A stretch of DNA of 30,300 nucleotides from a virus, in the IMG/VR virus record IMGVR_UViG_3300029448_000086, positions 13,341 through 43,640 of that record; one strand, given 5' to 3'. Below are positions 3,479-30,055 of the stretch, in pieces. A model generated the notes under the pieces. The model saw only the letters and a list, made by a program, of their open reading frames with translations, did no database searches and was not told the DNA's origin. A program made the translations under genes and the position numbers. Numbering within the stretch: the first letter of the stretch is position 1; each line of letters opens with the position of its first letter.

Positions 3479-3502
3479 AATTTTTAATTTTTAATTGTTA
3501 AT

Positions 3503-7201: not shown

Positions 7202-7202
7202 A

Positions 7203-9422
7203 TTAATTTTCTATTAATTTTGATTGCATGCCTTTATTTTTGTATTTTGCTATGCTTAAATTTAGTTTTTCTCTTTTTATATCTGCATTTGGTTTGTATA
7301 AATGCCTATTACATGCCATTATAGCTAGCCCTGAGCTTATAGCTGCATCAAATTTTGTTCTATTGTTTATATCAAACTTAGCCCAATCACTTAAAGTTCT
7401 ATTGAAATACATATCACCATAGCTACCATCTACTCTTTTCTGACCAACGTGATCTTGTATGTACATTTCAATTGCAGCAGCGTGTGCTTGTTTAATATCT
7501 TCACTAGAGTTTGGTATTCCACCAACTTCTTTTTCTGCGGTTGATAATTTATTCCAAACTTTATCAGGCCTGTTCATGCTAAAACCTCTATAACCGCGTC
7601 TTCTTAAATAATACAATAGACGGGGTTTATTATTTTCCGCTAGTATAGGCATCCCGTAAAATACTATTGCCATTAGAACGTCCTCAAAGAACATCTCAGC
7701 GGTTTGTGGTCTAGCTAAGTACTCTAAAAAAAACTGGTTAGGTGGACAATCTTCCATACTGAACTTACTCAAACCGTGTAAAGCTCCTTTAGAGCCTTGA
7801 CCATCAACTGTTCCTGATATATCATAACTATCACAACCAAAAGCACCCATGTGCTCGTTACCAGGATATTTTAAACCATTTTTTATTATAATCTTATTTT
7901 GTTGGTTCAACAATGGTGTCCATGAAATTTTAAACCTACCTTTTGGATCTGGATAAAATATTACTTTTGAATCTTTTATTCCATTAACCCATTGAAAATT
8001 ACCAGTTGTTATAACTTTACCTAAACCTAAACCTTCATTAAAATCAATTTGTTCGTATATTTTTGCTAAATTAAACAAACTGTTTTGTGTTTCATCTCTA
8101 AAAGCATGTTCTTCAGTTCTAGGAAATTGCCTATAAAATTCATTTAAAGCATCCCCATCGTTTTTTAAACCGTCAACTTCATTTTGCCAGTGTTCTAATA
8201 TACCTGTTTCAATTACTTCTCCAAAAGGTCCGAAAGCCTCTTGCTCTGGAGTTTCGAATACAGGTATGCCATAAGAATCAATGAATCCTTCGTAGTTCCA
8301 TTCCATAGGTATGAACAAACTATAGAGTCCTGAGCTTGTCTGTCCATTGCGGTTTCTTTTTGTAACATCTGAGTTTTTATATAGTTTTTTAAAGTTATCA
8401 CCGCCTTTATCTAAAGCATTTGATGTTGAACCCATCATGCATTTACCAATAATTCTACTACCTAATCGTAGTGTTGTTTTTGTAACTCTCCAGTTATTTA
8501 AAATGTTATTAGGTCTCTCCCATTTACCACTTTCATCATGAGCTAACAACTTAAGTTTTTCACCATCATAACTATTATCACCGGTATTTTTCCAATCAAT
8601 AGTAGTGTCTAACCCTTGCAAATCATTATCATCACTACCTAATTCTATTTTTCTTCTAGTTAATTTACTAGCCGGTACTCTATATGCTAATTCTGTTTTA
8701 GGTCGATCCATACCATCTTGAATCGGTTTAAAAAAGAAAGGATAATTAACCGATATTGGCACAACCTTATCAGTAAACATTTTTTTAGCGTCCGGTCCTG
8801 TTTTAGATAATATACCAAATCTTGAATCACTTGATATAGTAGCCATATTAACTAACTCACCAGAAGCCATAAATGAAAATCCAGATCGTCTATTTTTAAG
8901 GTAACACATACCGTAACATCTTTGATCAGCTTTACAAGCTTCCCAGAATATATAAAACAATCTATTTGCTTCTCTAAAATCTGGTTGACCAACGTCTATC
9001 TTACTCCACTGTAAGTACATATAATGTGTACCTGTTAAATATGTTGGAACACCTTTGTTGTAATACCAAAAACCATCTTCTCTTCTACTGAACTCTTCTT
9101 CTATATAATCTATATATTTAGATTTAAATTCACTAGGGTATTCTTTCCAATCAAATATTGTTTTAATTCTTTTTAGTTCTTTTGGGTATTCTGTTACCTC
9201 CCAACTGTCACTTTTGAATTTATTAATTTTTTTAGGTGTTTTAGGTAACGCAATTTGAAAATTTTGTATTTCATATATTTCACCAATCTCACCAGTTCTA
9301 CTAATAACAACAATGTCATGCTCTTTATTATAACCGTATTTCCACTTTTTAGACTTATTAAGTCTTTTTATAGTGTTTATTTTTATAGGTTCTACAACCT
9401 TATACAATGTTTGCTCGTACAT
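7203..9422 (-). CDS. terL: Terminase large subunit (packaging ATPase/nuclease)
   Basis: This 739-residue protein should be the packaging motor: an N-terminal ATPase that translocates DNA into the procapsid and a C-terminal RNase H-like nuclease that cuts concatemers. The ATPase signature is KNRRSGFS at 176-183 in the Walker A position, with Phe where most P-loops have Lys. The Walker B strand with the catalytic Glu is LLAHDE at 292-297. GILSKTG (203-209) lies between them. Likely nuclease metal ligands are D531 in GCDSYD, E596 in ILAENN and D692 in FDAAISS. The region around 126-160 (VPTYLTGTHYMYLQW... EANRLFYIFWEA) matches terminases of crAss-like and marine Bacteroidota phages that I recall. 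Its ATG overlaps the preceding stop as TAATG. Confidence 0.95.
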   Translation of the reverse strand: MYEQTLYKVVEPIKINTIKRLNKSKKWKYGYNKEHDIVVISRTGEIGEIYEIQNFQIALPKTPKKINKFKSDSWEVTEYPKELKRIKTIFDWKEYPSEFKSKYIDYIEEEFSRREDGFWYYNKGVPTYLTGTHYMYLQWSKIDVGQPDFREANRLFYIFWEACKADQRCYGMCYLKNRRSGFSFMASGELVNMATISSDSRFGILSKTGPDAKKMFTDKVVPISVNYPFFFKPIQDGMDRPKTELAYRVPASKLTRRKIELGSDDNDLQGLDTTIDWKNTGDNSYDGEKLKLLAHDESGKWERPNNILNNWRVTKTTLRLGSRIIGKCMMGSTSNALDKGGDNFKKLYKNSDVTKRNRNGQTSSGLYSLFIPMEWNYEGFIDSYGIPVFETPEQEAFGPFGEVIETGILEHWQNEVDGLKNDGDALNEFYRQFPRTEEHAFRDETQNSLFNLAKIYEQIDFNEGLGLGKVITTGNFQWVNGIKDSKVIFYPDPKGRFKISWTPLLNQQNKIIIKNGLKYPGNEHMGAFGCDSYDISGTVDGQGSKGALHGLSKFSMEDCPPNQFFLEYLARPQTAEMFFEDVLMAIVFYGMPILAENNKPRLLYYLRRRGYRGFSMNRPDKVWNKLSTAEKEVGGIPNSSEDIKQAHAAAIEMYIQDHVGQKRVDGSYGDMYFNRTLSDWAKFDINNRTKFDAAISSGLAIMACNRHLYKPNADIKREKLNLSIAKYKNKGMQSKLIEN

Positions 9423-9697
9423 TACTTAGATCTTCTTTCTGCAAAACCACCAAAAGATGTTTCTTCTGCTTTTTCTTTAGGTTTATTATCTAACATATCT
9501 TGCTCGTCCTGTATTCTATTCAATATCTCAAAGGCATCAAATATAGCTAGCTTTTTTGTTGCAGCTGCATTTTTTAATCTATCCGCTGACACATCATCTT
9601 CACTATCAACTATTTTTTCTTTAGCAACTTTAATAAGTTCTTCAACCGCTTTATGTCCAGCTTGGATTATATTCTTCTTCGTTTCCTTGATATTCAT
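9422..9697 (-). CDS. Small helical protein before TerL, possible TerS
   Basis: This 91-residue protein is predicted almost entirely helical. It has the stretch AVEELIKVAKEKIVDSE, then SADRLKNAAATKKLAIFDAF and EILNRIQDEQDML, and a Gly/Arg/Lys tail (SFGGFAERRSK). Its stop overlaps the TerL start by one base, so the two are translationally coupled. The position immediately before TerL and the all-helical make-up suggest the small terminase subunit that recognises DNA. However, it is short and lacks an obvious helix-turn-helix, so this is inference. The start lies 47 bp inside the preceding gene. No other in-frame ATG would give a sensible length. Confidence 0.78.
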   Translation of the reverse strand: MNIKETKKNIIQAGHKAVEELIKVAKEKIVDSEDDVSADRLKNAAATKKLAIFDAFEILNRIQDEQDMLDNKPKEKAEETSFGGFAERRSK

Positions 9698-10238
9698 ATT
9701 TAATTGTAATAAATTTAGATAATAATCTATATAGCCTTTCGTTCTCTATAACAAATTCATACTCGCTGTTAGGTGTGAACCCTATTAAATCACCAACTTC
9801 AACTGGAATAGTATTGTTTGTGTATTTAACAATACCTATCAATGGTTTTTCTTTATTAATGTTATATATGCTATCAGAGCTTATAGGTTTTACAAAGCAA
9901 TACTCTGGTAAACTAAACCAATTTTTATTTTTTTTGTACAAAAATAATTGATCTAAAGATACAAAATATTGATCTTCTTTAAAAAAAGATCTACTATTTC
10001 TTTCTTCACCACGTTGGTCATGCCATCTTCTAAAAACATTATGATGTATTACAACAATATCCCCTATTTTAATATCTGTTTTTATGTTCTTAGGAACAGC
10101 TAAAACTTTAGCATGTCTATTAACATATTGATGATTAAAAATTTCAGTGTTAAGTATTAATTCTTTATCACCTATTTTTTTAACATTGTTGTACCTAGAA
10201 CCTAAAGGTTCTACTAAAAAATCATAAAGTCCCTGCAT
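9651..10238 (-). CDS. Tandem GroES-like beta-barrel protein
   Basis: This 195-residue protein appears to hold two GroES-like units. The first (about residues 27-102) has the order beta-strand, HAKVLAVP (43-49), IKIGDIVVIHHNVFR (56-70), then YFVSLDQLFLYK (91-102). This parallels the GroES pattern of 'A.V.AVG', 'VGD.V.F' and 'ESDILA'. The second (about 110-182) has EYCFVKPI, PLIGIVKYT, VEVGDLIGFTPN and RLYRLLSKFITIKYE in the same order. A canonical mobile loop is not obvious in either unit. The gene stands between small conserved genes and the putative TerS and is far from the phage's GroEL/GroES pair. It could be a co-chaperonin, or a structural protein using the same fold. The barrel assignment is by eye. 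Confidence 0.72.
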   Translation of the reverse strand: MQGLYDFLVEPLGSRYNNVKKIGDKELILNTEIFNHQYVNRHAKVLAVPKNIKTDIKIGDIVVIHHNVFRRWHDQRGEERNSRSFFKEDQYFVSLDQLFLYKKNKNWFSLPEYCFVKPISSDSIYNINKEKPLIGIVKYTNNTIPVEVGDLIGFTPNSEYEFVIENERLYRLLSKFITIKYEYQGNEEEYNPSWT

Positions 10239-10456
10239 TAATACTCTAGATTAAACTCAATAGCTATAGCCATGTTTTTATTAAAATCTTTCCACGGTAG
10301 TATTTCGTCGTCCTTTTTAATATAAATACTATATTTATCGTCTTCTTCTATTATATCAGAGATGATATGCCCTCCGTAAACCTCTTGGCCTACGGAGTAG
10401 TGCATAGCTTCATTTTTGTAATCTCTACCGATACTAATCTTTCTTATCAGCTGCAT
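10238..10456 (-). CDS. Conserved small phage protein of unknown function
   Basis: This 73-residue protein has MQLIRKISIGRDYKNEAMHY at its start and a VGQEVYGGHIISDIIEED core, then a beta-rich end with ILPWKDFNKNMAIAIEFNLEY. An upstream ATG at 10531 would make 97 residues, but it would lie deep in the preceding gene. The start at 10456 overlaps that gene by only 23 bp and keeps the part that looks conserved. The 'AMHY.VGQ.V..G' pattern is one I have seen in proteins near the terminase of Bacteroidota phages. The compact all-beta appearance with a C-terminal aromatic ending is consistent with a small binding protein. No function can be given. Confidence 0.72.
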   Translation of the reverse strand: MQLIRKISIGRDYKNEAMHYSVGQEVYGGHIISDIIEEDDKYSIYIKKDDEILPWKDFNKNMAIAIEFNLEY

Positions 10457-10721
10457 TTTCTTCAGGTATTTCAGTAATAGTACCATCTTGTAAGTTAACA
10501 GATACTTTACCGTATTTTTCTTCAAGTTCACTTTGAATTACTCCTAATTCTTGTTGAAAAGCTTTTAAAATTTCAATAGCCGCAGCTTTTTGAACTTCTA
10601 AACCACCAACTTGCATTTGAGCTTGATTTATACTATTTACCTTTTCTTGAACTGACTTTAATTCTTCATCAGTAATTTTGTTTACATCTTGAGCGATGTC
10701 CTCTACTTTTACGTCTTTCAT
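10434..10721 (-). CDS. Small coiled-coil protein, unknown function
   Basis: This 95-residue acidic protein begins MKDVKVEDIAQDVNKITDEE. Residues about 15-70 are a long amphipathic helix (LKSVQEKVNSINQAQMQVG followed by AAAIEILKAFQQELGVIQ), very probably a coiled coil or helical hairpin. It ends in a short beta segment (KVSVNLQDGTITEIP) and a charged tail. It precedes, and overlaps by 23 bp, the 73-residue conserved gene. The composition resembles small virion-assembly or tail-chaperone helpers, but nothing identifies a function. Confidence 0.78.
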   Translation of the reverse strand: MKDVKVEDIAQDVNKITDEELKSVQEKVNSINQAQMQVGGLEVQKAAAIEILKAFQQELGVIQSELEEKYGKVSVNLQDGTITEIPEENAADKKD

Positions 10722-10745
10722 TTTATTAAATTTAATTATTAATTG

Positions 10746-11123
10746 TTATACATCCGCGTAGTCTTTCCACGCATCTTCAGCTTTCATAGCCGTGTACGCT
10801 TGAACTACAGGGTTTTTTGCACTACTTGATACATCCATTACGAAATTACCGCTAACCTGAGCAATGTTTTCATAAAATTTACCAGCAGTGTCTCTAAGCG
10901 CTTTGTCTTTCCATATTTTAGCTTGATAATTTGCAGAATTACTTTTTACTACCACATCGTGATATACTGCTTCAGTTTTTAAGCTACCATCTGAATTATA
11001 CACAGCGGCTGTTTTAATTACGTTGTTAACGTTCTCATCAGTATTGTGATTTACGCTAACAATTTTTACATACGCATCAGCTAAGCTAATGCCTTTAAAA
11101 TTGTAAGATCCTTTTAATGCCAT
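10746..11123 (-). CDS. Probable small virion protein, unknown function
   Basis: This 125-residue protein begins MALKGSYNFKGISLADAYVK. The first 70 residues look beta-stranded (YVKIVSVNHNTDE, TEAVYHDVVVKSN) and the remainder helical (KALRDTAGKFYENIAQVSG, VVQAYTAMKAEDAWKDY). The opening with a short strand and 'ISL.DAYV+I' is common in small phage structural proteins that form rings or decorate heads or tails. A 65-bp gap containing a short direct repeat separates it from the glycosyltransferase gene upstream, so it may have its own promoter. Function is inferred only from context. Confidence 0.75.
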   Translation of the reverse strand: MALKGSYNFKGISLADAYVKIVSVNHNTDENVNNVIKTAAVYNSDGSLKTEAVYHDVVVKSNSANYQAKIWKDKALRDTAGKFYENIAQVSGNFVMDVSSSAKNPVVQAYTAMKAEDAWKDYADV

Positions 11124-11129
11124 TGTTTT

Positions 11130-11185
11130 GTTTTTTAAGTTATTTCTATGTTTATATTATTACGCTATTTTCACGTTTTTTAAGT
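11130..11185. repeat. Two copies of an 11-bp direct repeat in a gene gap
   Basis: GTTTTTTAAGT occurs at 11130-11140 and again at 11175-11185, 45 bp apart start to start, inside the 65-bp space between the glycosyltransferase and the 125-residue gene. On the transcribed minus strand each reads ACTTAAAAAAC. The proximal copy is close to the next start codon. They could be operator or promoter half-sites, or chance repeats in A/T-rich DNA. Confidence 0.35.
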
Positions 11186-11188
11186 ATG

Positions 11189-11800
11189 TTAAATCACTAT
11201 AGGCTTCTCATGTCCAACTATTACGTCTAGATGTGCATGTATTGGTATGCCTGTAGATTTTAAGTTATGGCAAAAAGCCATTGTTTCAGATATACATTTC
11301 CAATTCCCTGGTACTGTAAAATAAGGAAACTTCATAAGCTCATATACACCTTTTTTTATAAGCATAAATGCCATACCAGTAAAAGAAACTTCAACAATAC
11401 CTGAATTTTTTTCAAGAAAATCGTTATTTATTCTTAATTCTTCTTCTCCAACCCAACAAGCATAATACTTAGAAGCTTCAATTTTTGCTAAGCCAGTTAT
11501 AACTTGTTTATCTGCGTCAATTAATTTTTGTAGATCTTCGGGTTTAAAAACCATATCAGAATCAATCCACATTAAATAATCATATTCTATTTTTTCTCCA
11601 AAAGGATTTAAACAAGGGTTGCAATCACTTTGTGGGTTTATACCTAAGCAAGTATATCTAGCTAAATGAACTATAGATGTGTAACCATTGCTTAATTCAG
11701 CTTGTATACCATTTTCTTGACAATACTTTAAAAGCTTTGTCCATGATGTTAAAAAATTGTTACTAAAATTCCTACCAGGAACACAAAATATTATTTTCAT
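11189..11800 (-). CDS. GT-A fold glycosyltransferase
   Basis: This 203-residue protein is a likely nucleotide-sugar-dependent glycosyltransferase. The N-terminal strand KIIFCVPGR is followed by a helix. YDYLMWIDSDMVF (73-85) carries the DxD-type D80-S81-D82 that binds metal and nucleotide sugar. VEVSFTGMAFMLIKKGVYE (136-154) is the usual acceptor-side strand-helix. SETMAFCHNLKSTGIPIHAH (171-190) resembles the '(E/D)D.AFC.+....G' segment, with E172 a candidate base, and VIVGH ends with a metal-binding-type H197. It starts 1 bp after the methyltransferase-like gene, in a block between fibre genes and packaging genes. It could modify phage virion proteins, phage DNA bases or host surface glycans; the sequence does not decide which. 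Confidence 0.83.
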   Translation of the reverse strand: MKIIFCVPGRNFSNNFLTSWTKLLKYCQENGIQAELSNGYTSIVHLARYTCLGINPQSDCNPCLNPFGEKIEYDYLMWIDSDMVFKPEDLQKLIDADKQVITGLAKIEASKYYACWVGEEELRINNDFLEKNSGIVEVSFTGMAFMLIKKGVYELMKFPYFTVPGNWKCISETMAFCHNLKSTGIPIHAHLDVIVGHEKPIVI

Positions 11801-11801
11801 T

Positions 11802-12320
11802 TTATTTAATTTCTTTTTCTATTAAAGGTATAAGTATTTTACCATTAGCTTCTAAATAAGAGCTATAATTGTTTTTAATATTATCTTGTATTTCTTGTGT
11901 TATATCTTTTTCCTCCCACCATAAATCAATTAATATTAAGTCATATTTTTTATTAGGTGTGTATGACAACGCATTACCTTTTATTATGCTTATAGGAGAT
12001 TCTAAATAATCAATGTAATCTATTAATTCTTGATTATTTTCTATAACATCTATTACACTACAGTTTTTAATAGCTTTTGCATATTGAGGTAATAGACCTA
12101 AACCTAAACCACCTATTAATATTTTATCAAAAGTAAAACCATCATACAGGGCTTTTATTTTTGTACAAGGATCGCAATCACCTAAAAACACTTTACCATA
12201 ATGATCTATGTTTTCTATACATTTTCCATCTCCAAAATCTATTTTAGAAATACCTTCTGTTTTAGTTACACTGAAACTAACACCTGAGTGTTCTTTTATT
12301 TTACTTTCTTCTATTTTCAT
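11802..12320 (-). CDS. Class I SAM-dependent methyltransferase-like protein
   Basis: This 172-residue protein has the Rossmann-type order of SAM methyltransferases and spermidine synthase-like enzymes. The glycine-rich loop is KILIGGLGLGLLP at 66-78. The acidic end of strand 2 is SVIDVIENNQELIDY (88-102, with E94). SIIKGNAL at 111-118 follows, and motif IV is KYDLILIDLWWEE at 125-137. It is shorter than typical spermidine synthases and lacks their N-terminal beta domain, although residues 1-50 look beta-stranded and contain HYGKVFLGD. It lies 1 bp after the 303-residue virion-like protein and 1 bp before the glycosyltransferase, suggesting the two enzymes act together. The substrate is unknown. 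Confidence 0.75.
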   Translation of the reverse strand: MKIEESKIKEHSGVSFSVTKTEGISKIDFGDGKCIENIDHYGKVFLGDCDPCTKIKALYDGFTFDKILIGGLGLGLLPQYAKAIKNCSVIDVIENNQELIDYIDYLESPISIIKGNALSYTPNKKYDLILIDLWWEEKDITQEIQDNIKNNYSSYLEANGKILIPLIEKEIK

Positions 12321-12321
12321 A

Positions 12322-13233
12322 TTAACATGAGTTTACACTAGTTATAACACCACTGCTATCTACTTCAAATCTACTAGTTGTATCGTCTCCAGCATCACAA
12401 ATATTACAAAAACCATATTTACCAGCACTTGGTGTTGACGTACCTGTGGCCGCTGTATAAACTTGATCACCTGTTGATGGTGATACATCTGGAAAATACC
12501 AAACAGCATCTGTAGCTTGACCACAAGCAAATACTCCTTTTGGTACAGATGTACTATAAACATTTATACCAACTCTAGGAGCTACACAATCTTGATAATT
12601 AGAAACAACACCAGAGCTACTAACTTGCATTACTTTATCTATTGTAGAAGCTGTTGTACCAGTATATTGACCACCACATCCAGAAGTACCACCAGCGTTT
12701 GCTACAGAATCAATTCTTAACCATCTATCACCACCAGGCATAGCACCTTGGTGTCCAGTACAAGTGTTATACGCCCAATATATAACGCTACCATTTCCTA
12801 ATGTTCCTTGATAAAGTATCTGAGCGCATGTTCCTGGTCCATTAGACGCGGCGCATGCATTTGCCTTTGATGTATGAGTCCAGTTATTAGCATTACCAGA
12901 AGTTCCAACTATACCAGCTGACCTGTAAAAACTACTATGATACCAGGTACCACTACTAGTTATATCATGATCATAACCATAAAACTCACTCATAGCGTGG
13001 GGTGTACTACTATTAGGATGTAGTAGTGAATTAGTGTTAGTAGCTTCCATTACTACTTGCGGGCTATGATTGCTACCACTTGTAGCACATGATTCTAAAG
13101 ATATAGTACCAGTACCACCAACAACATTACCACCTTGTCCACCTTGTATTGCTGTTGTGTCTGTATAATCATCATTTTGTTTTTCCCTACATATACCTAA
13201 TAAACTTATTGCACCTGAACCTGGAACAGCCAT
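12322..13233 (-). CDS. Cysteine-rich tail or surface protein
   Basis: This 303-residue protein begins MAVPGSGAISLLGICREKQN. Similar openings recur in marine phage adhesin-type proteins I have seen. The rest is Gly, Ser, Thr and Asn-rich with eleven cysteines, including CAASNGPGTC, CNIC and a C-terminal Cys. Repeated short beta units such as KVMQVSSSGVVSNYQDC and SRFEVDSSGVITSVNSC resemble a motif that ends in Cys. It overlaps the start of the neighbouring long-fibre gene's stop by one base and belongs to the fibre block. I infer a secreted-like or virion-surface beta protein, perhaps a fibre tip or host-binding protein. Eleven cysteines are unusual for a protein assembled in a reducing cytoplasm and may bind metal. 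Confidence 0.75.
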   Translation of the reverse strand: MAVPGSGAISLLGICREKQNDDYTDTTAIQGGQGGNVVGGTGTISLESCATSGSNHSPQVVMEATNTNSLLHPNSSTPHAMSEFYGYDHDITSSGTWYHSSFYRSAGIVGTSGNANNWTHTSKANACAASNGPGTCAQILYQGTLGNGSVIYWAYNTCTGHQGAMPGGDRWLRIDSVANAGGTSGCGGQYTGTTASTIDKVMQVSSSGVVSNYQDCVAPRVGINVYSTSVPKGVFACGQATDAVWYFPDVSPSTGDQVYTAATGTSTPSAGKYGFCNICDAGDDTTSRFEVDSSGVITSVNSC

Positions 13234-16200
13234 TATTTATTACAATTACATTTGTTAGACTTTAACTCTTCTATTTCAGCTTTTAAATCTTTTATAGCTT
13301 CTATTAAATAACCTGTTAAGTTACCATATGCTACACCAAGTGTACCATCCGTTTCACTTACTAACTCAGGTGCTATTTTTTGTATCTCTTGAGCTATAAC
13401 TCCAGAGCTTTCATTACCATTATCTTTTCTTGTAAAGCTAACGCCGCGCATATTGTATACTTTAGAACCATCTAAAGTTTTAATATTTTTCTTTAATTTT
13501 TTATCTGAGTAAGCTACGACATCTCCAGAAGCTGTTACTGTTCCTGATGTTGCTATAGTAAATAGAGCAGTTGAGTTATTTTTATAAAACGTGTGGCTAA
13601 AATCACCCACGTTTTGATACCTCATATTGTCACTTTCCCAATAGATAAAAGTTTTACCAGTGCCATTAGCTTGAAATCCAACACCACCTGATAAAGCAGC
13701 AGCAGTAGATCCCAATGTAAGTGTTTTACAACCTCCAGATATACTTTGAGGTGAATCAGTTCCAATACCCACTTCGCCGTTTGATGCAATTTTCATTCTA
13801 GCATTTCCTCCATTGTTGGCAAATGTCATTGAATTATCATTATGATCATATGCTACATAACCAGTATAAGCTTGATCACCTGTGCTACCATCTGCAAAAC
13901 ATAAATATTGTTTTTGACCTGTTCCTGTCCCGGTTATTGTAATTCCATTTTCATCAGGCGCAGCTATAACAAGCTGATCACCGTAGTAACTATTTGGATC
14001 AGTTAGTCCAATTCCTACGTGACCTAATTTATCTATCATCATTTTAGTATCAGCAATACCAGCACTATTGCTATCAGCATTTGAATTAACTAAAAAATGT
14101 AATTCTTGTCTTGCAGCGCCATCTCCTAAAGCTTTGGCTGCAATACCAATTTTTCTATACGCGGCATTTGCATCTTCTGCATAACCTAAGCTTATACCGT
14201 TCCATTGACCATTAGTGTTGTTCTGCCCACCAAAATGCGCGACAAGATTATTTACCGTTCCTTTTACTTGAAGTGCAGAATTTGGGCTACCTACTCCAAT
14301 TCCGACGTTACCCGTCGCGTCTATCATCATCGCTGATGCGCTTGTCATATAAGAAGCTGAACCACCACCATCAGGACCAGCTGTCCAAAAATGTATTTCT
14401 CCAGTATTCCAGTTAGTATCTGCACCTGCCCCTGTTTTTTTACCACCAATAGCTCCATATACTGATGAGTAACTACCTGACTCAGAAAGTGCACTAAAAG
14501 TTATTAATGGTGAATGAGTTGAGTTTGTGCTACTGTGATTGTAAAGATTTAAACCTAAAGAATAACCTATTGCTGTTGAGTTACTGTTTCCTGCACTAGA
14601 TAAAGTTAAAATTGGATCTCTACCATCAGTAATCCATCCAGCTCCATTAGTAGTAAGTGTTCTACCATTACCTCCAGAATTTGTATAATTATGATTTCCA
14701 GAATCTGTATTACTCATACTGTAGAAACTTCCACTTGCAGAATTATTAACATTAAAACCACCTGTTGTTTCATCAGTACCAATTCCTACTTTTCCAGCTC
14801 CCTCTGCTTCAACAAAGAAAGCATGTGTACTATTATTTGACTCTACTCTAAAATCAACATCACCACTACCTTCATTTACTACAACCTCACTTTGTGTTCC
14901 ATTTTGTTTAGCTGTTAGTAGTTGTACACCATCACCATAAAAATCTATAACACCATCAGAACTTTCTGTTATATAAGTATTACTTTGACCATCTAGATAC
15001 AATTTTCTACCAGCTGGTATTGCAAAATCTGTTGAACCAATTACATGAACATCACCGGTAATTTGGAATCTATCACTACCACCTGCAACAACTTTATAAG
15101 TGTTATCGCCACTAAAACCGAAATAAGTATGTGTATCACCATTGTGTTTCACATAATCATTTATAGAAAGCTCTGGTGTATCTATATTTCCAGTTACATT
15201 AATACCCGCGCCAGCACTTATAAGCCCTGCAAAAGTTGCAACACCGTCATGAACCATTTCTTTAGTGTTCTTCCAATAAGTTGCTACTTGTGTATTAGTA
15301 CCTAACGCACCGTTTGAACCTAATGTAGGTTCTACAGTATTAGCATTACCTAATAATAAAGCAAATTTTGGACCCCCAGTTCCACCCATATCATAAGCGT
15401 TGGTTAAAGCCCAATGTCTTTGGTTACCTGTCCAACCTCCACCTGAATGCCACATTAAGAAACCTTCATTAGATAATCTTGTACCACCGCTCCAATCTAC
15501 TGAATAACCTGCTAACACAGTACTATGTCTAGGGTTATCATTAGATGATGAACCACTATTTGAACCTGCCATTCTACCTAATACAATCTTATGCTCTTCA
15601 CCATCATCATCATATGCCGGTTGTAGTACAGTGTGTCCTGCACTTTCTATATAAAGACCAGCTTGACCTCCACCAACTACACTAACAGCATTAGTTTCAA
15701 ATCTAACGTGGGTATCTGTATCACCCTGGTGATATATGTATTCATTAAGTGTTAAATTATCATCTATTATAACAGCTCCATTAAAATAACTAGTACCGTT
15801 ATTATAAAAATCATATGATCCATGAACAGCGCTACTCATTACAGCAAACTTACCTGTAGCATTACCTGTTGCCATGCCTATATTCCCTGCAATAGTTAAA
15901 TTCCCAGCGTCAGTAAGTGTGAATTTTTCACTTAATGTTACAGCGGTATCAGCGTTTACAGATGCAGTGGAAAAATACATATTAATCTCACCCCTTCTTA
16001 ATCTCATTAATGTAGCTTTACCAGCTTCTATTGATTTACCTGCGTCACCACCTCCATAGTAAAAGTTTTGGCCTATATAAGTTTCATCTGCTCTTGAGAA
16101 TAAAGTCATTTGATCTTTATACGTCATAGAGCTGGTAACATTTGCATGCCAGGATGGTATAGATGCATCAGTTAACCCGATATGCTGTGTTAATGAAAAG

Positions 16201-19200
16201 TTACCATCTATTTGTACATCACCTTTAAAAGTTGCAGATAAATCATTGTTTATCGTTAATGCAGTATATCCACTTGGTAATGATGTACCAATTGTTGCTT
16301 CTCCACTACCACTTGCATTTTCTGGTGGATCAATAATAAATGACATAGCCGCACCAGTAGCCGCGTTGTTTCCAGTGAATAATATTCCTGCTATATTACC
16401 CCAGTTATTATTTCCATGATTTGAAGCTCTTTTATAATTAGTACCATCCCATCTTAAGTTAGTACCAATCCATGATCTCCATACCCCATTTGTTGTAGAC
16501 CATAAAGATATAGCTCTTGAATAACCTATTGCCATACCATGACCACCAACCGTAAACATACCGGAATCTGCATCTATAGGTCTTGATTGAAAATCATGAA
16601 AACCTTGCAACGTTGATTCGTTTATAGTATATCCTTGTGAATCTACATTACCTGCAAAAGTTGCATTGTTGCTTTGATCAAGAGTTAATACTGTACCTGT
16701 TAAAGAACCTGTTGCTAATTTTAAACTACCCTGATAAGCTGTTAAAACTGTTCCATATCCATCATTACCATCTGTAACATATAAAGCACCACATTCTGTT
16801 CCATCATTTTCTTTGAAATATAAAGCACCAGCACGACCATTTGCTGAACTTGTTCCTTTAAAAAATAAAGTTGGTACACCAGTACCAAATGATGTTGCGG
16901 CTGCTCCTAAGCCAATATTATCAGCTCGCACATCACCTGTAAAAGTTGCATTTTGTGAAGAATCAATCCTTAAAGCTTCTGTTAAACTTCCACTATTTGC
17001 TCTTGTCATAAAAAACAAATCTGTATTTCTATCTCCCGCATCTTGAAACTCAGCACCTATTCTTGCTGTTTCAAAACCAGTTGAATTTGAAAAACTTATT
17101 GGAATAAAGTTACCATCAGTATTGCTTGTATTCTTTAACCAAATTCCATGATCACTACTCGCAGCTACATTAGTACTTGTGTTTGATTGTTCTACTCTAA
17201 AACTCTCAGCAAAAACACGCCCTGCAAAAGTTGCAGCTCCGCCTTCTGACATATCAAAAACTAAAGCATTTATACCAGAACCTCCATCATCACCAACTAA
17301 ATATAAATCTTTATCTTGACCTAAATTGTATATAACACCGTTACCCGAGCCATCTGTATACATTCGTAAACCTGTTCCAGCGTTTACGTTTCCTGCAAAA
17401 GTTGATCCAGTAGATGTCATTCTTAATGGTTCAACACTACTAGCTAATTCAAAAAATATCTCACCACCTGATTCAATATTTTTCATAGCAAAATTACCTG
17501 CTTGAGAACCATGACCTGCACCATAAGCAAGTATATATGCTTCATTTGTTCCATGTGCAGAAGTCTGCCACTGTTGAAGTGTGTAAGATGTTTGGCTGCT
17601 ACTACCTAATATTAAAGGATTATCAGCGGTGCTACTATCAGCTAAAGTTATAGTTCCAGTTCCTGTATCAGCTGCATCACTTCTTAAAAATGAAGCTGCA
17701 TGTAAACTATCAACCGTGTCGGCGTTACTTACTGTAACACCTGTTAAGTTACTACCATCACCGTATAATGTATCTGCGTATAAGTTTCTTACTCTTGTAG
17801 CGTTAGAACCTATATCATATGCGCTATCAGCTACAGGTATTAAATGACCACCATTTTCTATATTCCACCTACCAGTGTCATTAGTCATAAACTGTAAATG
17901 GTTATTTGTGACTGCTCCAAATTTAGCTAAAGAGCTTTGTGCTTGTATTCTTATTTCAGCACCACTTGTTCTTGTTATATCTATTTGACCATTACCACCT
18001 CCACCACCAGTTACATCAATATTACCACTAGCTATTGTTCCTGCAAAAGTTGCGTTACCATTAGCTGCTAACGATAATGCTGCGGTTGCAACGTTATCAG
18101 TATGAAAGTCCATTCTTTCAGTACCTTGTAAATATCTTATTTGACCTCTTTTTTCTGTAGCATCATCTGCTGTGCCATCTGCAAAGAATATTGATCCATA
18201 ACCACCTGTTCCACTTTGTATTGTTATACCAGTATTACCACTACCTGCACCAACTACAAGATCATCAGCATCAGCGTGAAAGTCAGTTGCTGTAGCACCT
18301 ATACCGACTTTACCTGCAAAAGTTGCATTACCAGTATCTAAAATGTTAAGAGAAGCGGTACCACCAGTGTTAATTTGTAAACCTCCGTTTGTAGTATCTC
18401 TTTCTATAGAATTATAACCAATATTACTATCTATAAAATCAATTGCTTGACCGGATGCCATTCTAAAACCTGTAGCCGCGCTTACATATCCTGCAGACAA
18501 AGAACCGTCATAGCCTACTTGGAAAGGTGTCCAGCCAGATGTATCAGATCCAGTACCTGCGGCAAGAGACATAATCTTACCTGTTATAGTTTTTTGTATT
18601 TGTTTGCTATCACCGGTTGGTAATGTATTTACGTTTGTAAAGTTTACAAGAGCTGCAGATGTAGAACCATCTGGAAGTATTGTTACTTCAACGTAATCTT
18701 CACCACCACCTTTTATATCTACAAAAGCTTTACCTGTTGTCGTGTTTCTTACAACTCTTATATCTGTTATAAAGTTTGGGTAACTATTATGTAGTATTGA
18801 CAATGTAGAGTTAGCGTTTGACCAAGCTGTATTAACTATAGCTTCAACTCTACATGGTGTACCACTACCACCACCTGTTTGTATTAAGAAATGACATTTA
18901 CCTCTACCAGTACCACCTGATATTTCAATTATTCTATGCCATCCATTGCTTGCATCCCATGATTCTCCTCCAGTGTTACTATTAATAGTTTCTCTATAAA
19001 AATGATTATCGGATGTAATTTGTAAACCATTAACGTGTAAAGTGCTTGTGCTTACATAAAAATCCGCATCAGAATCAATAGAATTAGTACCACTCCAAAC
19101 AGCTAGTCTATTATCAACTCCACTACCTGTTACACCACCTGATGAATCTTCCCAAGCAACACCACTACCTGTTGATGTTAATACTTGACCATCACTACCT

Positions 19201-19916
19201 TGAGCGCCGTTAATTTTATAATTTGTGGCATCTACAGTACCTGCAAAAGTTGCATAACCGGTATCCGCTGTGATAACAAATGCGCTATCTAAAGTTCCTG
19301 CGTCAAATCTAACATTACCACTATTGAATAATATCATTCTTGTATCCTCACCATCATCATTTATTGAAATACCAGCTGTACCACCTTTCATATAAAGAAA
19401 ATCGTTATTAGCGTGTTTAATACTAGCTACATCACGATTGCTGTCTGCCGATTTTTCAAAAGTTACATTTTGATCGCCTTTTAATGTAAGTACATCTATA
19501 TTGCTGTTTTCTGAGCCATTGTGAAGAGAAAATGTTAGGTAATTGCTTGCGAGAGTAGAAGAGACATAGGATTTTATATCATGGTGTCTTGAGGCGTTTG
19601 TATCATGCCTACCTATTCTTAAAATACCTTCAGATTGATGACCTGGCATAACATTTATATTTGTCAAACCACTTTCTGTTATTTTAAATAATTCTTTATT
19701 ACTGTTTGATGCACTTGTAGTATTACTATGTATCCTAAATATCTCTCCAGTGCTATTGTTATCGCTATCAAAGTTTAATGTTAGAGAAGATCCTGAATTA
19801 ATTATAGAATCAAACGTTGTACCATCTGATAAATTTAAAGTACCACCTTCAGCAGTAATGTTACCTGTAAAAGTTGCGCTTTTTCCTGAAATATCCGAAA
19901 GAAATGGTATTGCCAT
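13233..19916 (-). CDS. Giant tail fibre with S74 intramolecular chaperone domain
   Basis: This 2227-residue protein is a host-recognition fibre. It is built of many beta-rich modules that repeatedly contain NATFAG-type strands followed by (K/N/T)(V/I) and 'GIG' or 'SAG' turns, the mark of triple-stranded beta-helix fibres that trimerise. Near residue 2137 begins SDKKLKKNIKTLDG, the conserved start of the peptidase S74 domain. The Ser and the following Lys form the dyad that releases the chaperone after trimer folding. VIAQEIQKIAPELV and a coiled coil (YLIEAIKDLKAEIEELK) complete the domain, which ends in KCNCNK. The N-terminus MAIPFL is shared with the 425-residue fibre and is probably the particle-attachment end. 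A terminator lies just upstream of its start. Confidence 0.94.
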   Translation of the reverse strand: MAIPFLSDISGKSATFTGNITAEGGTLNLSDGTTFDSIINSGSSLTLNFDSDNNSTGEIFRIHSNTTSASNSNKELFKITESGLTNINVMPGHQSEGILRIGRHDTNASRHHDIKSYVSSTLASNYLTFSLHNGSENSNIDVLTLKGDQNVTFEKSADSNRDVASIKHANNDFLYMKGGTAGISINDDGEDTRMILFNSGNVRFDAGTLDSAFVITADTGYATFAGTVDATNYKINGAQGSDGQVLTSTGSGVAWEDSSGGVTGSGVDNRLAVWSGTNSIDSDADFYVSTSTLHVNGLQITSDNHFYRETINSNTGGESWDASNGWHRIIEISGGTGRGKCHFLIQTGGGSGTPCRVEAIVNTAWSNANSTLSILHNSYPNFITDIRVVRNTTTGKAFVDIKGGGEDYVEVTILPDGSTSAALVNFTNVNTLPTGDSKQIQKTITGKIMSLAAGTGSDTSGWTPFQVGYDGSLSAGYVSAATGFRMASGQAIDFIDSNIGYNSIERDTTNGGLQINTGGTASLNILDTGNATFAGKVGIGATATDFHADADDLVVGAGSGNTGITIQSGTGGYGSIFFADGTADDATEKRGQIRYLQGTERMDFHTDNVATAALSLAANGNATFAGTIASGNIDVTGGGGGNGQIDITRTSGAEIRIQAQSSLAKFGAVTNNHLQFMTNDTGRWNIENGGHLIPVADSAYDIGSNATRVRNLYADTLYGDGSNLTGVTVSNADTVDSLHAASFLRSDAADTGTGTITLADSSTADNPLILGSSSQTSYTLQQWQTSAHGTNEAYILAYGAGHGSQAGNFAMKNIESGGEIFFELASSVEPLRMTSTGSTFAGNVNAGTGLRMYTDGSGNGVIYNLGQDKDLYLVGDDGGSGINALVFDMSEGGAATFAGRVFAESFRVEQSNTSTNVAASSDHGIWLKNTSNTDGNFIPISFSNSTGFETARIGAEFQDAGDRNTDLFFMTRANSGSLTEALRIDSSQNATFTGDVRADNIGLGAAATSFGTGVPTLFFKGTSSANGRAGALYFKENDGTECGALYVTDGNDGYGTVLTAYQGSLKLATGSLTGTVLTLDQSNNATFAGNVDSQGYTINESTLQGFHDFQSRPIDADSGMFTVGGHGMAIGYSRAISLWSTTNGVWRSWIGTNLRWDGTNYKRASNHGNNNWGNIAGILFTGNNAATGAAMSFIIDPPENASGSGEATIGTSLPSGYTALTINNDLSATFKGDVQIDGNFSLTQHIGLTDASIPSWHANVTSSMTYKDQMTLFSRADETYIGQNFYYGGGDAGKSIEAGKATLMRLRRGEINMYFSTASVNADTAVTLSEKFTLTDAGNLTIAGNIGMATGNATGKFAVMSSAVHGSYDFYNNGTSYFNGAVIIDDNLTLNEYIYHQGDTDTHVRFETNAVSVVGGGQAGLYIESAGHTVLQPAYDDDGEEHKIVLGRMAGSNSGSSSNDNPRHSTVLAGYSVDWSGGTRLSNEGFLMWHSGGGWTGNQRHWALTNAYDMGGTGGPKFALLLGNANTVEPTLGSNGALGTNTQVATYWKNTKEMVHDGVATFAGLISAGAGINVTGNIDTPELSINDYVKHNGDTHTYFGFSGDNTYKVVAGGSDRFQITGDVHVIGSTDFAIPAGRKLYLDGQSNTYITESSDGVIDFYGDGVQLLTAKQNGTQSEVVVNEGSGDVDFRVESNNSTHAFFVEAEGAGKVGIGTDETTGGFNVNNSASGSFYSMSNTDSGNHNYTNSGGNGRTLTTNGAGWITDGRDPILTLSSAGNSNSTAIGYSLGLNLYNHSSTNSTHSPLITFSALSESGSYSSVYGAIGGKKTGAGADTNWNTGEIHFWTAGPDGGGSASYMTSASAMMIDATGNVGIGVGSPNSALQVKGTVNNLVAHFGGQNNTNGQWNGISLGYAEDANAAYRKIGIAAKALGDGAARQELHFLVNSNADSNSAGIADTKMMIDKLGHVGIGLTDPNSYYGDQLVIAAPDENGITITGTGTGQKQYLCFADGSTGDQAYTGYVAYDHNDNSMTFANNGGNARMKIASNGEVGIGTDSPQSISGGCKTLTLGSTAAALSGGVGFQANGTGKTFIYWESDNMRYQNVGDFSHTFYKNNSTALFTIATSGTVTASGDVVAYSDKKLKKNIKTLDGSKVYNMRGVSFTRKDNGNESSGVIAQEIQKIAPELVSETDGTLGVAYGNLTGYLIEAIKDLKAEIEELKSNKCNCNK
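15226..19254 (-). repeat. Dispersed 15-bp repeat encoding ATFAG in the long fibre
   Basis: The coding-strand 15-mer TGCAACTTTTGCAGG occurs exactly at 15226-15240, 16651-16665, 17221-17235, 18313-18327 and 19240-19254. Near-identical variants lie near 16225, 16940, 17390, 18040 and 19865. Each encodes Ala-Thr-Phe-Ala-Gly (or a close variant) at the start of a beta module. Identity at nucleotide level, not only at protein level, suggests the modules arose by duplication or recombination. It could allow unequal exchange that changes fibre length. Confidence 0.85.
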
Positions 19917-26688: not shown

Positions 26689-27129
26689 TTATCTGTTTTT
26701 ATCTTTAATCATGTCATCAATGGCTTTATTATAAACCTTGTCAGTATATGATTTATTGTTAAAAAATACGTTACGTTCTGAAGTTGGAATATCCTCCTCC
26801 CCTAATAAGATTCTGTATATACGGGATATAAGTTGACTACATTTGAATGAGGTTTTGTATATACTATATTTAATTGAAGTTCTGTTTCTATGTCTCCACA
26901 CTTCGATCCAACCATCTTGTCGTAATCGTTCCCAACGGGTTTTATCCCACGAGTAAGTGTAAACACCCTCTATAAAGTTATTACGTGTAAATCGCGATTT
27001 GCAATCTAAATATACAAGTAATTCTAAATCTGAGTCTTTTAGCCCATAAGTTTTACAGGCCCATTTTCTAACAAGCCTGTAATATTTAAATAATCCTATG
27101 TCTCTTAAGTCCTGTGCACTTAGTTTCAT
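26689..27129 (-). CDS. MarR-type winged-helix regulator-like protein
   Basis: This 146-residue protein shows the order of a MarR-like winged helix. The N-terminal helix is LFKYYRLVRKWACKTYG. SDLELLVYLDCKSRFTRNNF (about 33-52) and a recognition-type helix (TYSWDKTRWERLRQDGW, about 58-74) follow. The wing is IEVWRHRNRTSIKYSIYKTS (about 75-94). The final helices are FKCSQLISRIYRILLGEEDIP. The overlap with GroES (ATGA, 4 bp) and the 1-bp gap to the next gene place it inside the operon rather than as a stand-alone regulator. It could govern the switch between early and late transcription; target sites are unknown. Confidence 0.7.
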   Translation of the reverse strand: MKLSAQDLRDIGLFKYYRLVRKWACKTYGLKDSDLELLVYLDCKSRFTRNNFIEGVYTYSWDKTRWERLRQDGWIEVWRHRNRTSIKYSIYKTSFKCSQLISRIYRILLGEEDIPTSERNVFFNNKSYTDKVYNKAIDDMIKDKNR

Positions 27130-27383
27130 TCTATTAAAACTATATCCTGCACTCTTATAACTTGGTAAAGCTTATCTTGCCACTGAATTCCATGACCAGC
27201 ATGTTTATCATAATGTACTGTATCACCATCACTAACACCTTCAACAAGATTACCTATAGAAATAATTTTTGCTTTTATATACCTGTTGTCACTGTCTAGT
27301 TTTTCTGTTATTTCTAAACCAGCAATTTTTTTAGGTTCTTTTTTTATTTTATCAACTACTATATAATAATTAACTGCTTGCAT
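27126..27383 (-). CDS. groES: Phage GroES co-chaperonin
   Basis: This 85-residue protein should cap the phage or host GroEL ring. YYIVVDKIKKEPKKIAGLEI (6-25) corresponds to the first strand and mobile loop; the hydrophobic tripeptide that docks on GroEL (Ile-Val-Leu in E. coli) would be Leu-Glu-Ile at 23-25. IKAKIISIGN (36-45), VSDGDTVHYDKHAGHGI (50-66) and YQVIRVQDIVLIE (73-85) follow the usual GroES barrel order, including the VG(D)D.V.Y and 'R..DIV' patterns. It is about 10 residues shorter than bacterial GroES because the roof hairpin between the two strand groups is missing, a feature it shares with T4 gp31. It overlaps the end of groEL by 14 bp. Confidence 0.9.
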   Translation of the reverse strand: MQAVNYYIVVDKIKKEPKKIAGLEITEKLDSDNRYIKAKIISIGNLVEGVSDGDTVHYDKHAGHGIQWQDKLYQVIRVQDIVLIE

Positions 27384-28941
27384 TTGGTATTCTTATATTA
27401 GATATTACACAATCTGCAGAAATTATAGTAGAAACAACGCTAACTGCATTTTTTAGAGCTGTTTTTGTAACTAAGACGGGGTCTACGATTCCGGATTTAA
27501 CCATATCGACTTGATCGCCGGTTATTACGTTAAAACCAATACCTTTTTGGGTAGGTATTTCGTAGTTTTCAATACCAGCGTTTGCCATAATGGTGGAAAA
27601 TGGAGATTTTATGGCTTCTACTAGTATTTTCTCCCCTATATTTTCGGTTTTTATGCTATTTGCAGCATTTAACAGCGCAATTCCACCACCTGGAACTATT
27701 CCTTCTTTCAAAGCTGCTTTAACTGCGTATATAGCGTCTTCAACTCGGTCTTTTTTCTCTTTTAATTCGACTTTTGAGTTTGCTCCAACCTTAATCATAC
27801 CTACAGAGCCACTTAACATAGCCAGTCGGTCTTGTAATTTTTTCTTAAAAAACGGTTCTTTTTCGTTTTTTATCTTTTTTCTTACTTCTTCGATTCTTTC
27901 TTTCAAATCTAGCTTTCCTACACCAGTTGTTAAGACGGTAGTTCTGTTATCTGTGACAGATTTTACTACTTGGCCTAAACAATCTGGCTGGATTAGATCT
28001 AAATCATCTCCAAGCTCTTCGTTCATTACTTTAGCACCTGTTAAAAATGCTAAATCTTCTATTGTATCTGCTTTGCTAGCACCAAAACCCGGGGGATCTA
28101 TGATGTTAACCTTAATATTACCCTTAACTTTATTCATTAAGAGCGCAGATTTAACTTGTTGATCAACTTCAGCAACTATTAATAAAGATTCTTTGTTCTT
28201 TATAACATGCTCAAGTATATTTTGTATTTTTCTTATACTAGGTATAGGTGATGAAACTATTAAAACACATGGATTATCTAATTCTGCTATGTGTTTATCT
28301 TTATTTGTTGCAAAATGCTGTGACGTTAGGCCACTATCTATTTGAACACCGTCTATAATTTCGGCGAAAGTTTCATCTGTTTCACTTTCTTCCATCAAAA
28401 CTACACCATCTTTACCTACTTTCTCGTAAGCTGACGCAATAATGCTACCAAGTTCCGTGTCATTGTTACATGAAATCGTAGAAACACTGGTAAGCTGAGT
28501 GCCAGATACTGCTTTGGCGTGTTTTGAAAGGTATTTATTAACCTTTTCAAGCCCTGATTCAATTCCATTTTTAATATTTCTAGTAGATTCACCCATAAAC
28601 TTGGGATCATTAACTGTTTTTAATAGTGATTCAGCAAGGACGATAGCCGTTGTGGTACCATCACCTGCTTCTTTCACTGTATTTTTGGAGGCTTCTTTAA
28701 TTAAAGTAGCACCTATATTTTCTACTGAGTCAAGTAATATAACAGATTCTGCTACTGTTACACCGTCTTTTGTAATTACGGGTTTACCTAACGCATCTTC
28801 GTATATCACGCACTTACCTGAAGCTCCAAGGGTAGACTTAACCGCCTTTGACAGTTTTTCTACACCTGTCATCACCTTGTCTTTTGCAGAATCGCCAAAA
28901 TATAGATCTTTGACTATCTGACTAGGATTATTGTATTCCAT
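27370..28941 (-). CDS. groEL: Phage GroEL chaperonin
   Basis: This 523-residue chaperonin is an apparently full set of equatorial, intermediate and apical domains. Nucleotide-binding residues are kept: ITKDGVTV (56-63), AGDGTTTA (92-99, the Asp equals E. coli D87), RVEDAI (399-404, Asp equals D398) and EGIVPGGG (413-420). Differences: the TLGPKG loop reads TLGASG (37-42). In the apical groove positions equal to Y199, Y203, L234 and L259 read about Leu205, His209, Gln240 and Lys264. The C-terminal GGM repeat tail is absent. The gene is the third of the leftward operon, followed by groES. Phage GroELs are known from Pseudomonas phages EL and OBP and from marine viruses. Clients here are probably the capsid protein or long fibre. 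Confidence 0.95.
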   Translation of the reverse strand: MEYNNPSQIVKDLYFGDSAKDKVMTGVEKLSKAVKSTLGASGKCVIYEDALGKPVITKDGVTVAESVILLDSVENIGATLIKEASKNTVKEAGDGTTTAIVLAESLLKTVNDPKFMGESTRNIKNGIESGLEKVNKYLSKHAKAVSGTQLTSVSTISCNNDTELGSIIASAYEKVGKDGVVLMEESETDETFAEIIDGVQIDSGLTSQHFATNKDKHIAELDNPCVLIVSSPIPSIRKIQNILEHVIKNKESLLIVAEVDQQVKSALLMNKVKGNIKVNIIDPPGFGASKADTIEDLAFLTGAKVMNEELGDDLDLIQPDCLGQVVKSVTDNRTTVLTTGVGKLDLKERIEEVRKKIKNEKEPFFKKKLQDRLAMLSGSVGMIKVGANSKVELKEKKDRVEDAIYAVKAALKEGIVPGGGIALLNAANSIKTENIGEKILVEAIKSPFSTIMANAGIENYEIPTQKGIGFNVITGDQVDMVKSGIVDPVLVTKTALKNAVSVVSTIISADCVISNIRIPNASS

Positions 28942-29553: not shown

Positions 29554-29852
29554 AATTATTTAATTACTTTCATGTTATAATAATCACATAGTCTCGTTAA
29601 AATTTAATAAACAGTGACAGTTGCCTATTACTAAGGTATACTATAAGGCTAGTGTCATAAAAAAAAGTATAAGATATTTTGGGAGTTTGCGTTGCCCCCC
29701 TCCCCTATACCACCCCGCTAACCTGGAAACGCTATGGATTTTGCCGGGCCCCCATGCTTATCCTCGTTTCGCCATGATAACCTAGTCAATTCGTATTCGT
29801 TCTGTGTTAACTATGTTGATTTCGCTTCACCATTTTGAATATACATTTCACG

Positions 29853-29900
29853 TTTTACATAGTAAATACGATAGCATACCGATTATATAATTGTAACTAA
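29853..29900 (+). repeat. 48-bp direct repeat, copy A (candidate early promoter)
   Basis: This copy matches 29983-30030 over 48 bp without gaps (36 identities by eye). The blocks conserved in both are TTTTAC, then six variable bases, AATACGA, eight variable bases, CGATTAT, and TAA/TGTAACTAA separated by single variable bases. The distance between TTTTAC and GATTAT suggests -35/-10-type elements. A 17-codon frame (29912-29965) follows, whose product would be MNLDIERVCGILLTQNK. Confidence 0.55.
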
Positions 29901-29982
29901 CAAACTAATAAATGAATTTAGATATTGAGAGAGTGTGCGGAATACTATTAACACAAAATAAATAAGTAAACAAACTAACTAC

Positions 29983-30030
29983 TTTTACAATACAAATACG
30001 AATCACTATCGATTATCTAAATGTAACTAA
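29983..30030 (+). repeat. 48-bp direct repeat, copy B upstream of rightward gene
   Basis: This second copy lies 25 bp before the ATG of the 75-residue plus-strand gene and shares TTTTAC, AATACGA, CGATTAT and TGTAACTAA with copy A. That placement supports a promoter or operator for this unit. The conserved block pattern with variable spacers is more typical of functional sites than of a recent duplication. Confidence 0.55.
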
Positions 30031-30055
30031 ATAATAATAATTAAATATAATAACT

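Follow-up and report, generated by a model that had tools for sequence, protein, structure and literature searches.

The phage T4 co-chaperonin gp31 lids the host GroEL for folding of the capsid protein. Phages EL, OBP, and AR9 encode GroEL-like proteins, and these chaperonins are reported to work without a co-chaperonin (PMC7185714, PMC9598537). Closer to the locus studied here, a GroEL gene and a Cpn10 gene are both carried by the cultured phage phi38:1, the Elemovirus phages, MW202828, and Panino. In the phi38:1 marine group, Nishimura et al. (2017) reported 36 genomes with GroEL and linked these genes to their homologues in Cellulophaga phages (PMC5332604), and the paper on Panino names both GroEL and GroES (PMC11590407). 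Methylated peptides of the phi38:1 GroEL, from infected cells as well as free virions, are listed in a 2026 proteomics study (PMC13288928). Thus, the gene is expressed; the peptides in the virion preparation may be carry-over. In chloroplasts, Cpn10 and Cpn20 form mixed lids of seven domains, and tandem co-chaperonins have been regarded as peculiar to chloroplasts (PMC5780408).

A sequence-only reading of the present locus had singled out its GroEL/GroES pair. The pair is not unusual here: it is already annotated in phi38:1, Elemovirus, and Panino, and it is an ordinary, known feature of this phage group. EL and OBP, which the same reading offered as analogues, are poor ones, since their chaperonins reportedly function with no co-chaperonin. 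Here we describe a second co-chaperonin gene, positions 9651 to 10238, which that reading did not list. None of the literature searched, the coverage of which was incomplete, described a tandem Cpn10 from a phage.

RESULTS

Layout of the late block

The window is the whole 30,300-nt stretch of DNA analyzed here. It comes from an IMG/VR virus contig of 45,094 nt in which one GroEL match was found. Its source is a marine phage of Bacteroidota-type bacteria. A minus-strand block extends from 29553 down to the low-numbered end of the record, with a divergent plus-strand block opposite, and contains GroEL, GroES, tandem co-chaperonin, fiber, holin, terminase, portal, and capsid genes. The features used below are as follows.

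29554 to 30055, no strand: noncoding stretch separating the minus- and plus-strand blocks, conserved in many relatives
27370 to 28941, minus strand: GroEL, group I chaperonin of 523 aa without a GGM tail (PF00118, phrog_5725)
27126 to 27383, minus strand: GroES, single-domain Cpn10 of 85 aa with mobile loop AGLEITE (PF00166, phrog_3188)
9651 to 10238, minus strand: tandem (double-domain) Cpn10 co-chaperonin of 195 aa, just upstream of the TerL gene (phrog_13932, structural model)
9422 to 9697, minus strand: helical-looking 91-aa open reading frame (ORF) between the tandem gene and TerL, without a family match
7203 to 9422, minus strand: large terminase subunit (TerL; phrog_6681, E = 8.5e-173), neighbor of the tandem gene

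GroEL is the third gene in this block, so the earlier placement of the pair at the head of the late operon holds approximately. The claim of crAss-like structural genes stood in part. A neighboring protein of 1,991 aa (record positions 6628 to 12603) passed the cut-off for the crAss muzzle C-terminal domain, which ties the phage to crAss-type tail architecture despite a capsid protein under the crAss cut-off: the putative major capsid protein scored 20 bits against Pfam Crass_capsid, where the curated cut-off that marks Crassvirales proper is 27 bits. The portal and terminase are members of the phi38:1/Elemovirus group, TerL being 38 to 62% identical to those of MW202828, Elemovirus, Panino, phi38:1, and phi46:3. 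The homologous terminase, portal, and head genes place the phage among the phi38:1-like, crAss-related podoviruses. The 91-aa ORF recurs across loci (211 matches), including MW202828 and phi46:3, and is by position a small-terminase candidate.

The noncoding region upstream of the block holds two 48-nt direct repeats, 75% identical, each with TTAGTTACAnTTAnATAATCGnTA. Two copies of that sequence were found, where none is expected by chance. A segment at 29710 to 29760 has 60% GC, against roughly 33% for the genome. The region is probably the site of late promoters or of a packaging or regulatory signal. The Bacteroidota -33/-7 promoter pattern was not enriched (2 sites, 1.76 expected, 0 near the block start), and a structured RNA in the GC-rich segment was rejected, as that segment had neither an Rfam match nor a stable fold.

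GroEL and the single-domain GroES form a complete pair

We found both ORFs exactly where the sequence-only reading had put them, adjacent and on the minus strand, and the pair is complete and phage-encoded as it claimed. GroEL matched Pfam Cpn60_TCP1 (PF00118) over positions 1 to 488 of the 490 in the profile (E = 4.7e-51; 174 bits, cut-off 34), which is full-length Cpn60 homology, and the PHROG chaperonin GroEL (phrog_5725) with an E value of 8.6e-131. The ATPase residues D52, D87, and D398 (E. coli numbering) are D59, D94, and D402 in the window, and together with GDGTTT they are invariant in the window GroEL and 27 close relatives. The apical groove is altered across the clade (Y199L, Y203H, L234Q, L259K, V263L, and V264M, with F204 and L237 kept). 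With Y199L, Y203H, L234Q, and L259K in the groove, standard lid binding is not to be assumed, and these substitutions suggest a restricted client set. R452 is not kept, the inter-ring segment is shortened, and the C-terminal GGM tail is absent.

The single GroES matched Pfam Cpn10 (PF00166) along its whole length (residues 2 to 82; E = 6.9e-7; 29.7 bits, cut-off 21.1), and a PHROG co-chaperonin GroES (phrog_3188; E = 5e-10). Its mobile loop, AGLEITE in the window and AGLIM or AGLIL in most relatives, aligns with E. coli GGIVLTG and keeps the hydrophobic tripeptide. A charge pairing between GroEL K259 and the acidic loop residue (E of GLEI) was considered and rejected, as that loop position is I in the majority of relatives that carry K259. 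The GroEL and GroES ORFs share 14 nt, and GroES shares 4 nt with the next ORF. GroES lies immediately 3' of GroEL in 95 of 97 GroEL loci, mostly with an overlap of 14 or 17 nt; the exceptions are phi38:1, where Cpn10 is upstream of GroEL, and one further locus (L138).

The pair is of phage origin

The best relative of the window GroEL among IMG/VR viral contigs is 84% identical, and many exceed 70%. The nearest cellular matches, among 84,980 bacterial and archaeal species, reach at most about 42%. In a maximum-likelihood tree of 121 sequences, 80 of them bacterial, the window and 26 other phage representatives formed one clade that excluded every bacterial sequence (SH-aLRT, 100; stem, 1.78 changes per site); this tree came from a quick search and has several long deep branches, and we rely on the phage clade alone. 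The window's clade grouped with phi38:1, MW202828, Elemovirus, and Panino (support, 89). Here groEL precedes groES, opposite to the usual bacterial arrangement: groES was upstream of groEL in 73 bacterial loci and downstream in 3. The sequence-only reading had asked if both genes might fall in a bacterial chromosomal clade with host synteny, and we found instead that the tree, the gene order, and the neighbors are all those of a phage.

The second co-chaperonin has two Cpn10 domains

Within the window, some 17 kb separate the tandem gene from GroEL and GroES. The tandem gene product matched a PHROG co-chaperonin GroES (phrog_13932) over nearly its whole length (E = 1.7e-18). The parts of the gene are as follows.

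9927 to 10238, minus strand: Cpn10 domain 1, modeled alone (Foldseek and Z scores)
10143 to 10184, minus strand: mobile-loop-like stretch of domain 1, residues 19 to 32, VKKIGDKELILNTE
9693 to 9926, minus strand: Cpn10 domain 2, with a shortened mobile loop (1p3h, hhalign, and phi38:1 Pfam match)
9654 to 9692, minus strand: conserved C-terminal tail ending in EYNPSW, predicted to be disordered (pLDDT under 50)

We modeled the tandem protein with AlphaFold2 from 31 relatives (pLDDT, 78; pTM, 0.73). Foldseek gave chloroplast Cpn20 (7ekq chain R) as the sole match below an E value of 0.001. The same chain was the best match by VIA (Z = 10.6), with 157 residues spanning positions 1 to 182. Domain 2 matched the GroES structure 1p3h over residues 103 to 183 (Z = 9.6) and bacterial GroES by hhalign at 94.6%, and domain 2 of the phi38:1 tandem protein passed the Pfam Cpn10 cut-off (E = 2e-6). 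Profile comparison of domain 1 by hhalign gave no significant match (0.03% for bacterial GroES and 5% for the phage single GroES). Because domain 1 lacked a sequence match to bacterial GroES, we modeled it separately, from 42 diverse sequences (pLDDT, 82.5). Foldseek ranks 1 to 22 for this model were all Cpn10 or gp31. The Z scores of 15 Cpn10 chains ranged from 8.1 to 5.9; the first non-Cpn10 structure scored 4.8, and gp31 scored 7.6. A full-length match to Cpn20 and a Cpn10 match for each half thus support two Cpn10 domains in one chain. Both halves are predicted Cpn10 folds, domain 1 on structural grounds only.

The loops differ between the halves. Domain 1 retains a loop-like motif (ELIL, within KELILN). 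Domain 2 in the window's clade has a shorter stretch without a recognizable mobile loop, so the Cpn20-type arrangement of a mobile loop in both domains is absent from this clade. We found loop-like stretches in both domains of the phi46:3 tandem protein and one, in domain 2, in that of phi38:1. Since the loop is missing in domain 2, we call the phage and plastid proteins alike in architecture and not one family. The tail is a mark of the window's clade: YNPSW was present in 130 of its 133 tandem proteins and in none of the other clades.

The tandem gene adjoins TerL and accompanies a single Cpn10

The co-occurrence of GroEL and GroES in relatives, which the sequence-only reading had proposed to check, was borne out, and it extends to the tandem gene: all three genes were present in 37 of 44 relative records. 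Twenty-nine of these were searched whole, and 27 held all three; the two exceptions are 47- to 48-kb fragments in which the tandem gene lies 2 to 4 kb from a contig end. Fifteen further records were reached via more distant tandem relatives, and 10 of them held all three. The complete Cellulophaga phages phi46:3, phi18:3, phi13:2, and phi19:3 have the tandem gene and a single Cpn10 without GroEL; these four are one near-identical lineage and were counted as one case. The tandem gene was found alone in three fragments, including one of 42 kb, and in none of the complete genomes examined did it occur without a single Cpn10. We found none of GroEL, single GroES, and the tandem gene in Gundel_1, which has a distant TerL.

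Downstream of the tandem gene, TerL is found within 2 kb in each of the 241 loci that extend far enough to hold it (these loci partly overlap between scans and are not 241 independent cases). The double-length protein is likewise beside TerL in phi38:1, Elemovirus, Panino, MW202828, and phi46:3. Public records label it co-chaperonin GroES, chaperonin cpn10, or hypothetical; several public "co-chaperonin GroES" annotations thus actually denote a double-domain protein.

A GroEL is also present in cr108_1, a crAss phage of the gut (Steigviridae; locus L253, positions 2992 to 4476). We looked directly upstream of its terminase for a counterpart of the tandem gene and found no match there. The gene two upstream of the terminase (L253, positions 5998 to 6378) has a weak Cpn10 match (E = 0.004) and may be a hidden crAss co-chaperonin.

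DISCUSSION

We propose that the phage encodes a dedicated three-protein chaperonin system in which the tandem and single co-chaperonins jointly lid GroEL for late virion or packaging clients, and we put the probability of this reading at about 0.65. The phage GroEL would be the ATP-driven chamber and the phage GroES a single-domain lid subunit. The tandem protein and single GroES would build lids together, for example five singles with one tandem or three with two, for seven domains in either case. Such mixed lids would close on the phage GroEL, or on the host GroEL in relatives without one of their own, and would serve the folding of late virion or packaging proteins.

In the complete genomes examined, the tandem gene is always accompanied by a single Cpn10, including those that lack GroEL. 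The pattern is most simply read as joint action of the two, by analogy with chloroplast Cpn10 and Cpn20, and from the same co-occurrence we infer a mixed lid that is active on a chaperonin. The clients are suggested by gene position, because the late block holds all three genes and the tandem gene keeps a fixed place beside terminase and portal. The sequence-only reading had proposed capsid or giant-fiber folding. A 2,227-aa fiber-like protein (positions 13233 to 19916) has a C-terminal endosialidase-type intramolecular chaperone domain (Peptidase_S74), and since this giant fiber carries its own folding aid, the case for chaperonin-assisted fiber folding is slightly lowered. With the mobile loop of domain 2 lost, the tandem protein may bind GroEL with little strength or have another function.

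The strongest rival takes up that last point. It holds that the tandem protein is a packaging or head-assembly factor with a Cpn10 fold that acts at the terminase or portal and is no longer a lid, leaving GroEL and the single GroES as an ordinary pair. The invariable place beside TerL, a domain 1 that has diverged past sequence recognition, and, in the window's clade, the loss of the domain 2 loop and the gain of a nearly invariant EYNPSW tail would all suit such a factor. It fits poorly with the constant company of a single Cpn10 in complete genomes and with the loop-like stretches in phi46:3 (both domains) and phi38:1 (domain 2), and the tandem protein, unlike the products of neighboring genes, is not labeled structural in the phi38:1 and Elemovirus records. 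We consider this rival unlikely.

Somewhat less probable again is that the co-chaperonins mainly redirect the host GroEL, as T4 gp31 does, and that the phage GroEL is an accessory in some lineages. Phages phi46:3, phi13:2, phi18:3, and phi19:3, with both co-chaperonins and no GroEL, would be explained in this way, and domain 1 does resemble gp31 in the structural comparison. However, being one near-identical lineage, these phages speak as readily for a loss of GroEL as for its late gain. In the window's clade, the translational overlap of groEL and groES as neighbors in 95 of 97 cases and the conservation of a GroEL with intact ATPase residues make a cognate pair likelier.

There is practically no chance that the pair comes from a piece of bacterial chromosome, was recently taken up from a host, or arose by chimeric assembly: GroEL is universal in bacteria and the window's is about 40% identical to that of Flavobacteriaceae, but the fully supported, long-stemmed phage clade outside every bacterial sequence, the reversed gene order, and the phage neighbors of both genes on dozens of independent contigs rule this out.

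The three-protein reading can be carried further. Phages may have independently evolved a Cpn20-type tandem protein that forms an asymmetric seven-domain lid with the single Cpn10 and so retunes the chamber for packaging or head proteins. The lid would be fitted to the host GroEL in the phi46:3 lineage and to the phage's own GroEL in the window's clade, where only one of the two domains of the tandem protein would still grip GroEL. We offer this extension tentatively and think it somewhat more likely to be wrong than right. A phage that supplies the ring as well as two lid types would offer a natural setting in which to ask how client specificity depends on lid symmetry and GroEL groove chemistry. 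A widespread marine phage tandem protein beside the terminase would show that this design arises outside chloroplasts. phi38:1, Elemovirus, and phi46:3 are small, genetically tractable systems in which to study tandem co-chaperonins.

Comparison with known systems

The most similar described phages share the gene set and differ in detail. phi38:1 (Callevirus, Pervagoviridae) has all three genes: gp5 is GroEL, gp7 is Cpn10, and gp89, annotated "co-chaperonin GroES," is the double-length protein, adjoining the terminase gp90 as the window's tandem gene adjoins TerL. Its GroEL is only about 39% identical to the window's, its single Cpn10 is upstream of GroEL and one gene away, and the second domain of its tandem protein retains a mobile-loop-like stretch. 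In Elemovirus (Flavobacterium phages vB_FspP_elemo) and the Maribacter phage Panino, as in the window, GroEL is directly followed by a Cpn10-sized gene and the tandem Cpn10 adjoins TerL. In contrast to the window, their GroEL is about 36% identical to it and the EYNPSW tail is absent; in the elemo phages the GroEL/GroES pair also lies on the strand opposite its neighbors.

Chloroplast Cpn20 (Chlamydomonas CPN20, 7ekq chain R) resembles the tandem protein in having two head-to-tail Cpn10 domains and a single-Cpn10 partner. It differs in sequence (14% identity) and in that the phage clade has the mobile-loop motif in domain 1 only. We found no evidence that the fusions in chloroplast Cpn20 and in the phage tandem protein share a common descent.

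EL, OBP, and AR9 also encode GroEL-like proteins; these are very distant in sequence, whereas the window GroEL has a cognate GroES. The overlap with that GroES and an ordinary group I GroEL sequence rule out a lidless chaperonin of their type. T4 gp31 and RB49 CocO are likewise phage co-chaperonins of Cpn10 fold. They are single-domain proteins, and T4 encodes no GroEL of its own, whereas the window phage has three genes. The overlooked tandem co-chaperonin is the new element of an otherwise known phage chaperonin system.
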